Shown here one piece after another: positions 6,913-61,108 of a DNA stretch of 64,000 nt. Each line of letters starts with the position of its first letter. Position 1 is the stretch's first letter. Below the pieces are notes generated by a model. The model worked only from the letters and a program-made list of their open reading frames with translations. It was not told the DNA's origin and did no database searches. Position numbers and translations under genes: made by a program. The stretch is from Terriglobia bacterium. GTDB lineage: Bacteria; Acidobacteriota; Terriglobia; Bryobacterales; Bryobacteraceae. The stretch lies in NCBI GenBank assembly GCA_020073365.1, contig JAIQFL010000006.1, forward strand, positions 1 through 64,000, written 5' to 3'.

Positions 6913-6922
6913 TGGGCTCGTG

Positions 6923-16996: not shown

Positions 16997-17080
16997 TACG
17001 CTATTTGTGGTTCCACGTACCAGAAACTAAAATGTGCGTAGCGGTTGGAATGCCGTTTGCTCGTTTTGCCGGAAGATAAG

Positions 17081-19234
17081 ATGCCGCGTACCATATTGCC
17101 CGGGAAACCTTACCCCCAGGGCGCCACCTGGGATGGAACCGGGGTAAACTTTTCGCTCTACTCGGAGAAGGCCACTGGCGTGGAATTGTGCCTCTTCGAG
17201 GATGTGGATTCCGTGGACTCCGAGCCCGTCTCGATTCGGGAATGTACCGGATACGTCTGGCACTGTTATTTGCCCGGAGTGAAGCTCGGCCAGTTGTACG
17301 GATATCGCGTCCACGGGCCTTATGAGCCCGAACGTGGCGAGCGCTTCAATCCCGCCAAGTTGCTGATCGATCCGTACGCCAGGGCGCTGGCAGGTGGATT
17401 AAATTGGGACGCTCCGGTGTTCGGGTATACCATCGGTGACCTAGGCGGGGACCTCTCGTGCGACGGAAAAGACGACGCTTGGGGGGTCCCCAGGTGCGTC
17501 GTAACGACTTCGCATTTCGACTGGGAGAACGACCGGCCGCCGCTTACGCCTCTGCACGATTCCATCCTTTATGAATTGCACGTGAAAGGCTTTACCGCCT
17601 CGCACCCCGAGATCCCCGAAGAACTGCGCGGGACCTACGCGGGGCTGGCCCACCCCGCAGCTATCGATTACCTGAAGAAACTGGGGATCACCGCGGTGGA
17701 GCTGATGCCGGTCCACGAGTTCGTGGACGACAAACATCTGCTCGACAGGGGCCTGCGGAATTACTGGGGCTACAACTCGATCAACTTCTTCGCGCCGGAA
17801 GCGCGTTACAGCGCGTCGGGCCACGGCGGAGAGCAGATCGGCGAGTTCAAAGCTATGGTGCGGGCCCTGCATCGGGCCGGCATCGAGGTCATCCTGGACG
17901 TGGTCTACAACCACACCGCCGAAGGGAACCAGATGGGGCCCACGCTCAGTTTCCGGGGCATCGACAACTCTACCTACTACCGGCTGGTCCAGGAGACTCC
18001 CCGCTACTACATGGACTTCACCGGCACCGGCAACACGCTCAACGTGCGGCACCCGCAGGTGCTCAAACTGATCATGGACAGCCTGCGCTACTGGGTGCAG
18101 GAAATGCACGTGGATGGCTTCCGTTTCGATCTGGCATCCGCGCTGGCGCGCGAACTGCACGAGGTAGACCGGCTTTCGGCCTTCTTCGACATCATCAATC
18201 AGGACCCCGTGATTTCGCAGGTGAAGCTGATCGCGGAGCCCTGGGATGTCGGCGAGGGCGGCTATCAAGTGGGGAAGTTTCCGCCTTTGTGGGCGGAGTG
18301 GAACGGACAGTACCGCGACGGGGTGCGCCGGTATTGGAAGGGCGACGATGGACAACTTGCGGAGTTGGGCTACCGTCTCACCGGGTCGAGCGACCTCTAC
18401 CAACGCGACGGCCGGCACCCTACCGCCAGCGTCAATTTCGTCACCGCGCACGATGGCTTCACGCTCGATGACCTGGTGAGCTACGACCAGAAGCACAACC
18501 GGGCCAACGGCGAAGAAGATCGCGATGGCACGAACGACAACCACTCCTACAACTACGGAGCGGAGGGCCCTACCGGCGATCCGGAAATCCTGGAAACGCG
18601 CGAGCGGCAGAAGCGGAACTTCCTGTTGACGCTGTTGACCTCGCAAGGCGTCCCGATGATCTGCGGCGGCGACGAGATGGGCCGCACGCAACAGGGGAAC
18701 AACAATGCTTACGCGCAGGACAGCCCGCTCAGTTGGTACGACTGGAATCTGGACGACCGGCGGCGGTCGCTATTGGAATTCACGCGGCGGCTGGTGGAAC
18801 TGCGGCGCCAGCATCCCAATCTGCATCGCCGAAAGTTTTTTCAGGATCGCCGGATCGACCCCGGAACGGAGCAGCGCCAGGTGAACGGACATACCGAACC
18901 GGACATTGTCTGGTTGCGGCCGGACGGCATCGAGATGACCCCCGAGGAGTGGAATCAGGGTTGGGTCCGGTGCATCGGACTGCAACTGAACGGACGAACG
19001 CTGGATGACGTGAATGGCGTTGGCGAGCCCATTCGGGACGAGACCTATATGATTCTTCTGAACCCGCATCATGAGCCGATCAAGTTCTTCATGCCGCCGA
19101 AGGAAGGGATCGGTTGGGAGGTCATGCTTGACTCCGGAGCTCCGGAAAGGAGCGATAAGCCGGTAATTGGGCCAGGGGAATTCCATGAGCTGATCCCGCG
19201 GAGCACCGCCTTGCTGCGGGAGCTGACGGATTGA
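17081..19234 (+). CDS. glgX: Glycogen debranching enzyme GlgX
   Basis: PGKPYPQGATWDGTGVNFSLYSEKATGVELCLF; VILDVVYNHTAEG; GFRFDLASAL; LIAEPWDVG; VTAHDGFTLDDLVSY. Confidence 0.92.
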   Translation: MPRTILPGKPYPQGATWDGTGVNFSLYSEKATGVELCLFEDVDSVDSEPVSIRECTGYVWHCYLPGVKLGQLYGYRVHGPYEPERGERFNPAKLLIDPYARALAGGLNWDAPVFGYTIGDLGGDLSCDGKDDAWGVPRCVVTTSHFDWENDRPPLTPLHDSILYELHVKGFTASHPEIPEELRGTYAGLAHPAAIDYLKKLGITAVELMPVHEFVDDKHLLDRGLRNYWGYNSINFFAPEARYSASGHGGEQIGEFKAMVRALHRAGIEVILDVVYNHTAEGNQMGPTLSFRGIDNSTYYRLVQETPRYYMDFTGTGNTLNVRHPQVLKLIMDSLRYWVQEMHVDGFRFDLASALARELHEVDRLSAFFDIINQDPVISQVKLIAEPWDVGEGGYQVGKFPPLWAEWNGQYRDGVRRYWKGDDGQLAELGYRLTGSSDLYQRDGRHPTASVNFVTAHDGFTLDDLVSYDQKHNRANGEEDRDGTNDNHSYNYGAEGPTGDPEILETRERQKRNFLLTLLTSQGVPMICGGDEMGRTQQGNNNAYAQDSPLSWYDWNLDDRRRSLLEFTRRLVELRRQHPNLHRRKFFQDRRIDPGTEQRQVNGHTEPDIVWLRPDGIEMTPEEWNQGWVRCIGLQLNGRTLDDVNGVGEPIRDETYMILLNPHHEPIKFFMPPKEGIGWEVMLDSGAPERSDKPVIGPGEFHELIPRSTALLRELTD

Positions 19235-19258
19235 GTAGCGGGCAGCTCGTGAACCCTG

Positions 19259-19301
19259 AAAACCGGTGCGGTTTTGCGGGCCGACCGCTCTCTGACGGTC
19301 G
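19259..19301 (+). repeat. Two hairpins between glgX and treZ (family C-like)
   Basis: AAAACCG-GTG-CGGTTTT (19259-19275) and CGACCG-CTCTCTGA-CGGTCG (19282-19301). Confidence 0.65.
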
Positions 19302-19316
19302 CGGCTCCGATCCACA

Positions 19317-21248
19317 ATGACCACTCAAAGACGATACCCCATAGGAGCCGAAGTCCTGCCCGACGGCGTGAGCTTCCGCGTGTGGGCCCCGCGGCGTAAG
19401 AGAGTCGAAGTAGTGCTGGAGTCCGGCGCAGTCACGGACCTGCACGCCGAACCATCCGGCTACTTCTCCGCGGTCGTCCCCCCAGCCGCCAATGGCGCCC
19501 GGTATCGCTTTCGACTCGACGGCGGCGCCGCATTCCCCGATCCCGCATCGCGGTTTCAGCCGGAGGGTCCGCACGGCCCATCGCAAGTGGTGGACCCTGC
19601 GCGCTTTCCCTGGAGCGACTCGGCGTGGCCGGGAGCTTCGATCGAGGGGCAGGTAATTTACGAAATGCACGCCGGCACGTTCACGCGCGAAGGCACCTGG
19701 GAGGCCGCCCGCCGCGAGTTGCCGGAACTGGCGAGTGTGGGAATCACCGTGGTGGAACTCATGCCCGTGGCAGATTTCCCGGGCCGGTTCGGATGGGGCT
19801 ACGACGGCGTGGGGCTGTACGCACCCGTCGCAATCTATGGCGCACCGGACGACTTCCGCCGATTCGTAGATGACGCGCACCGGGCCGGAATCGGCGTGAT
19901 TCTGGACGTGGTCTACAACCATATCGGGCCCTATGGCAACTACCTGCCTCAATTCTCCGAAGACTATTTCTCCCGGCAATACAACAACGAGTGGGGCGGC
20001 GCCCTCAACTTTGACGGTGACAACGCCGGACCGGTGCGCGAATGGGTCACCACCAACGCGGCCTACTGGGCCGAGGAATACCACCTCGACGGCCTGCGGC
20101 TGGACGCCACCCAGCAGATCTTCGACACGTCGCCCGAGCACATCATGGCGGCACTCGCCAAACGCATGCGGGCGGCCGCCCACGGGCGCAAGATCTTCAT
20201 CGTGGCGGAGAATGAACCGCAGCATACCAGGCTGGTGCGGCCCGTTGTCGGACAAGCGCTTCCGCCTGTCGAAAACAGTCTCTTAGCCTGCGAAGAGGGC
20301 GGATATGGGCTGGACGGTCTGTGGAATGACGATTTCCATCACAGCGCACGCGTCGCCATGACGGGCCGCAACGAGGCGTATTACAGCAACTATCTTGGCA
20401 AGCCGCAAGAGCTGATTTCGGCGGTGAAATACGGCTACCTCTACCAGGGACAGCGCTACCCGTGGCAGGCCAAGCGGCGTGGCGCCCCGGCCTGGGGCCT
20501 GAGCCCCGCGCGATTTGTGACGTACCTCGAGAATCACGACCAGGTCGCCAACTCGGGACGCGGCGAGCGCGTCGATCGCCTCACCAGCCCCGGCCGCTAT
20601 CGGGCCATCACGGCGCTGCTGCTGCTGGCGCCGGGAACTCCCATGCTGTTTCAGGGGCAGGAATTCGGGGCGTCGAGCCCGTTCTTCTATTTTGCGGACC
20701 ACGAGCAGGAAACCCGCGGCCTGGTATGGGAGGGCCGCATTCAGTCGCTCGCGCAGTTCCCCAGCCTGGCGCAGCCCGAGATGCGCCCGTACCTCGTGGA
20801 CCCGGGCGACCCCGCCACCTTCGAACGCTCGAAACTCGACTTCGCAGAGCGGCACAGCCACGGCGGGATCTACCAGCTCCACAAAGACCTGCTGCGGCTG
20901 CGGCGCGAGGAGCCGGTCTTCCGGGCGCAGAGGTCCGGCGGCCTGGATGGCGCGGTGCTCGCGGACGAGGCGTTCCTGTTGCGCTTCTTCGGTGAGCCCG
21001 TGGGTCGCCAAGGTGATGACCGGCTCCTGATCGTGAATCTGGGGAGGGACCTGAAGCTCGAACCGGCGCCGGAACCGCTGCTGGCGCCGCCGGAGAATCA
21101 GGTGTGGGAGTTGCTCTGGTCGAGCGAAGCTGCGTGTTACGGAGGGGCCGGTACGGCGCCCGTCGAAAGCGGCCTGGGCTGGCGCATCCCCGGTCACGCC
21201 GCGGTGGTGATGCGGCCGGCCCCGCAGAGCGAAGAATGGCAGATCTGA
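19317..21248 (+). CDS. treZ: Malto-oligosyltrehalose trehalohydrolase
   Basis: YEMHAGTFTREGTWEAA; DVVYNHIGPYGNYL; GLRLDATQQIFD; LDGLWNDDFHHSARVAMTGRNEAYY; contains an unusual 16-aa in-frame insert. Confidence 0.9.
   Translation: MTTQRRYPIGAEVLPDGVSFRVWAPRRKRVEVVLESGAVTDLHAEPSGYFSAVVPPAANGARYRFRLDGGAAFPDPASRFQPEGPHGPSQVVDPARFPWSDSAWPGASIEGQVIYEMHAGTFTREGTWEAARRELPELASVGITVVELMPVADFPGRFGWGYDGVGLYAPVAIYGAPDDFRRFVDDAHRAGIGVILDVVYNHIGPYGNYLPQFSEDYFSRQYNNEWGGALNFDGDNAGPVREWVTTNAAYWAEEYHLDGLRLDATQQIFDTSPEHIMAALAKRMRAAAHGRKIFIVAENEPQHTRLVRPVVGQALPPVENSLLACEEGGYGLDGLWNDDFHHSARVAMTGRNEAYYSNYLGKPQELISAVKYGYLYQGQRYPWQAKRRGAPAWGLSPARFVTYLENHDQVANSGRGERVDRLTSPGRYRAITALLLLAPGTPMLFQGQEFGASSPFFYFADHEQETRGLVWEGRIQSLAQFPSLAQPEMRPYLVDPGDPATFERSKLDFAERHSHGGIYQLHKDLLRLRREEPVFRAQRSGGLDGAVLADEAFLLRFFGEPVGRQGDDRLLIVNLGRDLKLEPAPEPLLAPPENQVWELLWSSEAACYGGAGTAPVESGLGWRIPGHAAVVMRPAPQSEEWQI
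20244..20291 (+). repeat. Family A palindromic element inserted in frame in treZ
   Basis: GTCGGACAAGCGCTTCCGCCTGTC (20247-20270); encodes VVGQALPPVENSLLAC between LVRP and EEGGYGLD. Confidence 0.8.
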
Positions 21249-23275
21249 TTCGCATACCGAAACGCGTGCTGCTCGATCCCGAGGCGGACCCGCACCTGCG
21301 CGAGGAATGGCTGGTCACCAACGGCCTGGGAGGTTACGCCTCCGGCACGGTGAGCGGCGCCATCACGCGGCGCTACCACGGACTGCTCATCGCCGCCCTG
21401 CCCAACCCACTGGGCCGCATGATGATGCTGAACGGGCTCTCCGAGCGGCTGCGGCACCCCGACCATCGAGTGGTCTACACGGGCGCCGAAGAGCTTACGG
21501 CAATCACTCCCGAAAACACGCTGCCGTTGGCGCAGTTTCGCCTGGAGGGCGGGTTGCCCGTGTGGCGCTACGAGTGGGAGGGTTTCGTTCTGGAGAAGCG
21601 GCTGCTCCTGCCGTACCGCCAGAACACCGTGCACGTCTCGTATCGCCTGCTGGCCGGCAAGGGGAAGCTGCGGCTGGGTCTGCGACCCGCCATCCATTTT
21701 CGCCCCCACGATGCACCGGTCAATTCGGGCGACCCGCAAAAGTACGTGCTCACGGCTTTCGAAGACCAGTTCGAAATCTCGTCCAAGACCGATCTGCCGG
21801 CCCTGCGGCTTCTGATGCTGGGGCCCTCCTCCGCCTTCACGTTCGACCGCAAGGAGACCCAGTCGATTCCGTACTCCACCGAGCGCAGCCGCGGGTACGA
21901 GTGGCAGGGCTCGCTGTGGAGCCCGGGGTATTTCCGATCCGATCTGGGTGAGGGCGATCGCGTGACACTCATCGCCTCCACCGAAACCTGGGAAACCGTG
22001 CGCGCGCTGGCACCAGACACCGCTTTCCAAGCGGAGCTGGACCGCCGCAGGCTGCTGCTGGCGAGGTCGCATCCGCAGACGCGGACGGGAGCGGCGGCGG
22101 AGCTGGTCTTCGCGGCGGACCAGTTTCTCATCACGCCGGCGGGCCGCGTGGAAGATGCGGCGCGCGCCCGGGCCGCGGGCGACGAGATCCGCACGGTGAT
22201 CGCCGGCTACCACTGGTTCACGGATTGGGGCCGCGACACCATGATCAGCCTGGAGGGCCTCACCCTCACCACGGGGCGCAACGCTGAAGCGGGATGGATC
22301 CTGCGCACGTTCGCCTACTATATTCGCGACGGCCTCATCCCCAACATGTTCCCGGAGGGCGGGAAGGACGGGCTCTACCACACGGCCGACGCGACGCTGT
22401 GGTTTTTCCACGCCATTCATCGCTACGTGGAACTCACCGGCGACCGCACCACGCTGCAGATGCTGCTTCCCAAACTGGCGGACATCATCGAACACCACAT
22501 GCGGGGCACGCGCTTCGGAATTGCCATGGACTCCGCCGACGCGCTGTTGCGCCAGGGCCAGGAAGGCTACCAGCTCACCTGGATGGATGCCAAGGTGGAC
22601 GATTGGGTGGTGACGCCGCGCCGTGGCAAGGCCGTGGAGATCAACGCTCTCTGGTACAACGCGCTGCGCCTGATGGAGCAGTGGCTGCGCGAGGAGCATC
22701 AGGAAATGCGTGCGAAACAACTGGGGGACGTGGCAGACCGCGTCCGCGAGTCGTTCCAGCGGCGCTTCTGGTTCGCGCCAGGCGGCTATTTGTACGACGT
22801 GGTGGACGCGGAAACCGGCGGCAACGACGACGCCTGCCGTCCCAACCAGGTGCTGACCATTTCGCTGGACTATCCGGTGCTCGACGAAGCGCGGTGGCCG
22901 GCCGTGCTGGACGTGGTCACCGCGAAGCTGCTCACGCCGGTCGGCCTGCGTACGCTCGCGGCCGAGCATCCCGACTACAAATCGAAATACTATGGTGATT
23001 TGCGGTCGCGCGACGCAGCGTATCATCAGGGGACGGTTTGGGCGTGGCTGATCGGACCGTATATCGACGCCTGGTTGAAGGTGCATCCGGGCGAAAAGGC
23101 GGAGGCGCGGAAGTTTTTGCAGGGCTTCGTGCCGCATCTGGATGAGGCGTGTATCGGTTCGATCAGCGAGGTGTTCGACGCCCAAGCGCCGTACACGCCG
23201 CGCGGCTGCGTGGCACAGGCGTGGAGTGTGGCGGAAGTGCTGCGCTGCTGGGTGAAAACCGCGTCCGGTTCATGA
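21236..23275 (+). CDS. Amylo-alpha-1,6-glucosidase-type glycogen debranching enzyme
   Basis: EEWLVTNGLGGYASGTVSGAITRRYHGLLIAAL; HWFTDWGRDTMISLEGLTL; start inside the end of treZ. Confidence 0.9.
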   Translation: MADLIRIPKRVLLDPEADPHLREEWLVTNGLGGYASGTVSGAITRRYHGLLIAALPNPLGRMMMLNGLSERLRHPDHRVVYTGAEELTAITPENTLPLAQFRLEGGLPVWRYEWEGFVLEKRLLLPYRQNTVHVSYRLLAGKGKLRLGLRPAIHFRPHDAPVNSGDPQKYVLTAFEDQFEISSKTDLPALRLLMLGPSSAFTFDRKETQSIPYSTERSRGYEWQGSLWSPGYFRSDLGEGDRVTLIASTETWETVRALAPDTAFQAELDRRRLLLARSHPQTRTGAAAELVFAADQFLITPAGRVEDAARARAAGDEIRTVIAGYHWFTDWGRDTMISLEGLTLTTGRNAEAGWILRTFAYYIRDGLIPNMFPEGGKDGLYHTADATLWFFHAIHRYVELTGDRTTLQMLLPKLADIIEHHMRGTRFGIAMDSADALLRQGQEGYQLTWMDAKVDDWVVTPRRGKAVEINALWYNALRLMEQWLREEHQEMRAKQLGDVADRVRESFQRRFWFAPGGYLYDVVDAETGGNDDACRPNQVLTISLDYPVLDEARWPAVLDVVTAKLLTPVGLRTLAAEHPDYKSKYYGDLRSRDAAYHQGTVWAWLIGPYIDAWLKVHPGEKAEARKFLQGFVPHLDEACIGSISEVFDAQAPYTPRGCVAQAWSVAEVLRCWVKTASGS

Positions 23276-27783: not shown

Positions 27784-27808
27784 GTGGGACAGGCGATTCG
27801 CCTGTCCC
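27784..27808 (+). repeat. Family A palindromic element after the gluconate-DH subunit 3 gene
   Basis: GTGGGACAGGCGATTCGCCTGTCCC. Confidence 0.9.
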
Positions 27809-39718: not shown

Positions 39719-40624
39719 ATGAACAACGTGGGACAGGCCCTTTGGCCTGTCTACTGCGAACACGGCGGGACAGGCCCTTCGGCCTGTCAACGGCGGCAGC
39801 GCCGCCGCACCCTGCTTTTCAACCTTCCCGCCATCACCGCCATCCTCGCCAGCGCCCCGGCGCTCGCCGCGAAGTCCTATCCGGTGGACGGAATTGTCGT
39901 CGCGCTCGACCCGGCGGCCAGGGCCATGCTGGTTTCCCACCGGCCGATCGCCAGGTACATGGGCGCCATGATGATGCCTTTCCGCGTGGACAACGCCCGC
40001 GAGCTCCAGGGACTCTATCCCGGAGCTCGCATTCAGTTCGAGCTGGTGGTAGGAAAGGATCGCTCGATCGCCAGGAACGTCCGGAAATCGGGCGGCGCAG
40101 ACGCCGCGATCCCCGCGCCCCGGGAAAAGCTGGCTATCGGCGATGCCGTGCCGGACTTTCAGCTCACGGACCAGGAAGGCCGGACGTTCGGTGCCGCCGA
40201 CCTCCGCGGAAAGGTGCTCGCCATCGACTTCATCTACACGCGTTGCCCCCTGCCCGACGTCTGCCCCAGGCTGGCCGCGAATTTCGCGACGCTCCAACGC
40301 CGCTTCCCGCAGGCACTCGGGCGAGATCTGATGCTGCTCTCGGTGACCGTGGATCCGGACTTCGATACCCCTGCCGTGCTGGCGGATTACGCCAAGCGCT
40401 GGTCGGCGGACAGCCGTGGCTGGCGTTTTCTGACGGGAGATGTCACGAAGCTTGCCGCTCAGCTCGGAGAGGTCTACTGGAGCGACGAGGGATCGATCGG
40501 GCACAATTCGACGACCTCCATCATTGGGCGCAATGGCAGGCTTGCCGCAGTGGTCGATGGATCTGCCTGGCGAATCGATCAACTCGAACACTTGATCTCG
40601 CACGAGCTCGAGAATACCCGGTAA
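39719..40624 (+). CDS. SCO1/SenC-family copper protein (copper-efflux-like domain plus thioredoxin fold)
   Basis: FQLTDQEGRTFGAADLRGKVLAIDFIYTRCPLPDVCPRLAANFATLQ; 5' codons overlap tandem palindromes. Confidence 0.83.
   Translation: MNNVGQALWPVYCEHGGTGPSACQRRQRRRTLLFNLPAITAILASAPALAAKSYPVDGIVVALDPAARAMLVSHRPIARYMGAMMMPFRVDNARELQGLYPGARIQFELVVGKDRSIARNVRKSGGADAAIPAPREKLAIGDAVPDFQLTDQEGRTFGAADLRGKVLAIDFIYTRCPLPDVCPRLAANFATLQRRFPQALGRDLMLLSVTVDPDFDTPAVLADYAKRWSADSRGWRFLTGDVTKLAAQLGEVYWSDEGSIGHNSTTSIIGRNGRLAAVVDGSAWRIDQLEHLISHELENTR
39728..39788 (+). repeat. Family A palindromic element, two tandem copies
   Basis: GTGGGACAGGCCCTTTGGCCTGTC (39728-39751) and GCGGGACAGGCCCTTCGGCCTGTC (39765-39788). 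Confidence 0.9.
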
Positions 40625-59578: not shown

Positions 59579-59610
59579 GTGGGACAGACGATCGGCTTTC
59601 GTCGTCTGTC
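59579..59610 (+). repeat. Family A palindromic element upstream of the porin gene
   Basis: GTGGGACAGACGATCGGCTTTCGTCGTCTGTC. Confidence 0.88.
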
Positions 59611-61076: not shown

Positions 61077-61108
61077 GTGGGACAGACGATCGTCCTTCGT
61101 CGTCTGTC
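61077..61108 (+). repeat. Family A palindromic element abutting the porin stop codon
   Basis: GTGGGACAGACGATCGTCCTTCGTCGTCTGTC; same orientation as 59579-59610. Confidence 0.88.

Follow-up and report, generated by a model that had tools for sequence, protein, structure and literature searches.

The palindrome that lies in frame in the middle of treZ raises the question of whether it is an inserted element and, if so, of what kind. The gene is located in a window of 64,000 nt (the whole stretch of DNA analysed), where glgX lies on one side of treZ and an archaeal-type glycogen-debranching enzyme gene on the other (17045–23272). We consider it very probable that 45 nt of this gene represent a non-autonomous palindromic element of the REP type, which inserted in frame after the split from the sampled relatives. 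The element consists of a GTGG tag, an 8-bp stem and a 4-nt loop, probably followed by a second hairpin. The features of the locus are as follows.

19317–21248, + strand: treZ, encoding malto-oligosyltrehalose trehalohydrolase, 643 aa (NCBIfam TIGR02402, 582 bits against a cut-off of 538.8; matches to TreZ in the PDB)
20247–20291, + strand: in-frame insertion of 45 nt, codons 311–325 (VGQALPPVENSLLAC), facing a gap in 85/85 aligned homologues
20247–20270, + strand: copy of the REP-like palindrome, tag GTCG (consensus GTGG), 2 mismatches to GTGGGACAGGCGCTTCCGCCTGTC
20251–20258 and 20263–20270, + strand: stem of this copy, with the loop at 20259–20262; the copy encodes VGQALPPV
20275–20291, + strand: putative second, degenerate hairpin (ACAGTCT CTT AGCCTG C), separated from the first by a GAAA spacer

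Across the insert, TreZ reads RLVRPV-VGQALPPVENSLLAC-EEGGYGLDGLWNDDFHH. The 15 inserted residues are found in none of the 85 aligned homologues, which come from Bryobacterales, Desulfobacterota, Planctomycetota, Azospirillum and others, and all of which go directly from RPx to the GGYGLD motif; the TreZ relatives point to Bryobacteraceae. The original prediction that the insert interrupts a stretch contiguous in TreZ homologues is thus borne out, since orthologues do not conserve the 16 aa, and the indel is as clean as it had supposed, yet measures 45 nt and 15 aa rather than 48 nt and 16 aa. No target-site duplication is visible at the insert. Because contig ends interrupt TreZ of the same-genus genome G001 right at the insert spot, with the middle of the protein missing, only other genera show the empty TreZ site, at about 77% protein identity and lower.

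In the predicted fold of TreZ, residues 314–326 have pLDDT values below 50 and form a loop flanked by well-modelled strands. The insert lies shortly past E298, a residue invariant in the alignment that we take, as in the TreZ/GH13 family, to be the catalytic-acid Glu. Because the family-invariant residues E298, D263 and D408 are all kept in the insert-bearing protein, the enzyme may still work despite the insert. Following the catalytic-Glu strand, the extra residues probably make up a disordered loop that the protein tolerates, without a function of their own.

The hairpin itself is present in treZ where it had been predicted. Relative to GTGGGACAGGCGCTTCCGCCTGTC, a variant that is found exactly elsewhere in the genome, the TreZ copy carries two changes, G3C and G9A, both synonymous in the TreZ frame (GTG to GTC and CAG to CAA). 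As the original prediction had it, the copy differs from that at 39728 at 5 of 24 positions, including a compensatory change (C12:G17 versus G12:C17), and the 12:17 pair covaries generally. Downstream of the 24-mer, the insert continues for 21 nt, in which the GAAA spacer precedes the 17 nt of the second hairpin (ACAGTCTCTTAGCCTGC). Since these 21 nt resemble a second hairpin, the TreZ insert may be a two-hairpin unit, although the TreZ copy taken by itself does not surpass shuffled sequences in folding. Genome-wide, hairpins beside copies of the palindrome fall below the 5% shuffle threshold downstream in 10 of 37 cases, versus 2 of 37 upstream.

The 24-mer belongs to an abundant family, with the consensus GTGG + GACAGGCS + 4-nt loop + SGCCTGTC (8-bp stem, 24-nt core). 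In the 12.09-Mb genome (G000, a draft of 705 contigs with 6% contamination), GTGG-GACAGGCn6GCCTGTC occurs at 346 places with at most 2 mismatches, versus 2 for the reversed control, which confirms the anticipated genome-wide excess; the 64-kb window holds 3 matches, against 0.01 expected by chance. A sister variant, GTGGGGCAGGC..GCCTGCC, is found at 171 places at the same tolerance, a count that overlaps the 346, and a further sister variant reads GTGACACAGGC..GCCTGTG. Columns 12 and 17 are free in the search pattern, which partly fixes the outer pairs, and these two columns pair in 33 of 36 copies (15 G-C, 13 C-G, 4 A-U and 1 U-G, with 3 unpaired). The covariation score of the whole stem exceeds those of all 500 shuffles. 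Such covariation and a tag at one end only are hallmarks of REP elements. The GTGG tag stands on one side only in 64 of 71 exact cores and on both sides in none of the 71, whereas a GTAG tag is carried by only 2 of the genome's copies of the exact pattern. Close pairs are frequent, with 13 among 85 copies.

The further copies that had been listed in the window also exist, the last two with a longer stem.

27784–27806, + strand: intergenic copy with a 3-nt loop, GTGGGACAGGCGATTCGCCTGTC
39728–39751, + strand: copy outside conserved coding sequence, the first of a head-to-tail pair
39765–39788, + strand: the second copy of this pair
59579–59610, + strand: long-stem variant GTGGGACAGACGATCGGCTTTCGTCGTCTGTC
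61077–61108, + strand: long-stem variant GTGGGACAGACGATCGTCCTTCGTCGTCTGTC

The two variants with long stems (GTGGGACAGACGATCG..CGTCTGTC) also carry the GTGG tag, on a different stem, and are probably another subfamily. Around the copies at 27784 and 39728, synteny between the window and G001 breaks.

The family enters protein genes elsewhere as well. A census of 109 copies of the two main variants in 1.59 Mb, placed with a hexamer coding score, finds coding signal on both sides of 13 (12%), versus 62.7% of random 24-mers (p ~4e-27), a density that does not extrapolate because the last 20 stretches were chosen for holding copies. About 88% of the copies are thus non-coding, and the odds of a copy lying in a gene are reduced about 12-fold. 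The 13 coding copies fall in 11 ORFs, which are treZ and 10 more: glyS (contig C3), two glnD-type genes (C265 and C230), a PKS gene (C97) and the genes of a GT2 glycosyltransferase, YfhO, MacB/FtsX, a methyltransferase, a SpoIIE-GAF protein and a TPR membrane protein. A copy in a CHAT-NTPase gene (C64:41261) was found outside this census. Two candidate in-gene copies, C138:30397 and C593:8249, were dropped for their weak coding signal.

Two of the genes, the core genes glyS and glnD, have exact empty sites. The GlyS insert of 27 aa (81 nt) is a head-to-head dimer, counted as two copies, and the same-genus G001 reads GGGATGAGC directly followed by GGCGTGCG, exactly and without the 81 nt; an insert of that length is found in no other relative that aligns at the site. 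Likewise, the GlnD protein encoded on C265 has about 33 extra aa (about 99 nt) where G001 reads EEWRSIDAATW, and the other relatives also do not carry the insert. The insert in this GlnD gene (L367:7556–10132) looks as if a unit of about 51 nt (AACTCCA..GGCGGTTYAGAA..GCGGCAG..) stood twice in tandem, a pattern that suggests local duplication after insertion. In the second GlnD-type protein (L365:10028–12568, on C230), the HD motif region, which reads FHDTGKG.. in the paralogue, is altered at the palindrome copy. Its uridylyl-removing domain is possibly inactivated, and the copy may sit in a decayed gene, given that the neighbouring HD motif is also altered. In the PKS, copies lie in two linkers, one of them contributed by a GTGACACAGGC-like variant; the variable KS-AT linker that holds a copy is about 9 residues longer than in G002. 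For the ORFs other than TreZ, GlyS, GlnD and PKS, we infer insertion from the element match and its coding context; the PDB alignment of the GT2 protein ended before its insert.

Five coding copies (in TreZ, GlyS, PKS, C29 and C217) are read in the frame that gives VGQALxPx, four give AGxSACPT or a close variant from the opposite strand, and the remaining four are in other frames. Because Arg-rich peptides are among those encoded in the palindrome's other frames, filtering can account for this preference. To explain the frame bias, it is enough to assume selection on tolerated insertions, and directed gene targeting is unneeded.

These observations bear on what else the TreZ segment could be. 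The most distant TreZ homologues vary slightly in the loop at the insert site, as would be expected if the loop were naturally variable and resembled the palindrome by chance, with no element inserted. Such a coincidence is extremely improbable, however, when 0.01 chance matches are expected in the window and 85/85 homologues have a 15-aa gap just where the match lies, and when GlyS and GlnD show the same kind of event, each facing an empty site in a genome of the same genus. A hairpin kept in treZ for a regulatory role, acting as mRNA or DNA through pausing, mRNA stability or protein binding, would have precedents, as REPs can act in transcripts elsewhere (PMC3733652). We nevertheless rejected it, because folding of the TreZ copy does not surpass that of shuffles (RNA z +0.20, DNA z −1.16); with the tag and one stem pair of this copy degraded and the genes entered unrelated to one another, such a role is very unlikely.

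A different alternative is that the palindrome is a true Rickettsia-type protein-coding element, selfish and adapted to genes, for which coding insertion is the normal habitat. Like Rickettsia palindromic elements (RPEs), it lies in frame in unrelated functional genes (TreZ, GlyS and GlnD, with clean gaps in relatives) and encodes a recurrent peptide, and the entry into the core genes glyS and glnD and the shared VGQALxPx and AGxSACPT-type readings speak for this view. On the other hand, most copies are non-coding and genes are strongly avoided, whereas almost half of the RPEs first found in R. conorii lie in ORFs (PMC10969869), and the frame bias is accountable by filtering. Size and tag also differ from those of RPEs (PMC3767692, PMC3733652): RPEs measure about 100–150 nt and those of the RPE-4/6 type are CGTC repeats (PMC3733652), while the palindrome has a 24-nt core, a GTGG tag and inserts of 45 (TreZ), 81 (GlyS) and about 99 nt (GlnD). 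Phylum and sequence are different as well. Adaptation of this kind is hence unlikely, though less so than the two preceding alternatives. The likeness to RPEs that the original prediction saw extends to behaviour (in frame, 13 copies in 11 ORFs) and not to membership (24 nt, GTGG tag, mostly intergenic). The palindrome behaves like an RPE, and its empty sites are unusually clear.

The anatomy of the palindrome fits REPs better than RPEs. GTAG-superfamily REPs (Di Nocera et al. 2013, PMC3733652) are short hairpins with hundreds of dispersed copies, occurring as singletons and dimers, with an unpaired GTRG tag at one end only, and are mostly intergenic with some in frame in genes, those of tRNA synthetases in other species among them. 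They are defined by a stem of 5–13 bp, a small loop and many dispersed copies, all of which are found here (8 bp, 4 nt, 346 places), together with the mainly intergenic location (13/109 coding versus 63% of random 24-mers) and the dimers. The one-end tag is present as a GTRG variant, as canonical GTAG is rare here; the normal tag of this family is GTGG, as in GTAG-20 of Opitutus terrae, whereas the usual tag of GTAG REPs is GTAG. No copy lies beside any of 37 Y1_Tnp loci, in contrast to the RAYT association of the superfamily, so that REP membership is claimed by anatomy only. The same survey describes both GTAG- and CGTC-tagged REPs, the GTGG-tagged family of O. terrae and in-frame intragenic REPs in several species outside Rickettsia, for which neutral insertion in loops is one explanation (PMC3733652). 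On these grounds the palindrome is a new family of an already known kind.

GTAG repeats have been reported from Proteobacteria, Cyanobacteria, Chloroflexi and PVC, not from Acidobacteriota, for which the survey lists only transposase-linked terminal repeats (PMC3733652). These TIRYT-associated repeats, in Koribacter and Terriglobus of the same phylum, are linked to Y1 transposases and flank the transposase gene, unlike the palindrome (0/37 loci). Ca. Solibacter usitatus Ellin6076 likewise has a large acidobacterial genome with many short repeats, mostly below 50–100 nt, which the consulted passages of PMC3174227 do not describe individually or report within genes.

Within the family of the bacterium, 28 of 150 sampled genomes carry the tagged palindrome at 1 mismatch, and both same-genus genomes hold more than 100 copies each (131 and 113). 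At zero mismatches, it is found in none of about 294 sampled genomes from the other families of the phylum. Judging from the genomes sampled, the palindrome is confined to one family. The literature matching the string GTGGGACAGGC consists of unrelated papers.

The movement of REPs is attributed to RAYT Y1 transposases, an association that is frequent and not universal, since CGTC repeats occur without RAYT (PMC3733652). The genome has 7 Y1_Tnp genes, and the palindrome flanks none of the 37 loci surveyed in 12 genomes (these 7 and 30 of relatives); no gene was found to recur beside its copies. As no Y1_Tnp locus, own or of relatives, is flanked by the palindrome, we infer the mobiliser by analogy with the REP/RAYT proposal: a tyrosine (Y1/HUH) transposase would act in trans and move the element in the form of a single-stranded hairpin. 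Insertions that break genes would then be removed by selection, which would explain why in-gene survivors have lengths in multiples of three, encode small neutral peptides and sit in loops or linkers.

A broader proposal, which we put forward tentatively and hold at somewhat less than even, is that lineage-restricted REPs of this soil bacterium recently seeded dozens of genes, including core glyS and glnD, and thereby offer, outside Rickettsiales, a way of gaining new protein segments that resembles that of RPEs, driven by a transposase not yet recognised. The case adds Acidobacteriota to the phyla with REP-type elements that have copies inside genes, and offers a free-living, GC-rich example of peptide-coding palindromes in core genes whose exact empty sites are seen in a genome of the same genus. 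TreZ, GlyS and GlnD, which are easily assayed, make it possible to test whether such elements give rise to usable protein segments or are no more than tolerated.

Other palindromes accompany this family. At one Y1 transposase locus of the genome (L184, on C2), another type of hairpin, CCCCGGGC..GCCCGGGG, occurs four times and may be the REP family of that transposase. A third tagged palindrome family, GTGACACAGGCATTCTTGCCTGTG, has 29 copies in 1.26 Mb, including those at 6920 and 54148 of the window and on contigs C33, C158, C444 and C593 of G000, and a relative of it sits in a PKS linker (C97:27219).
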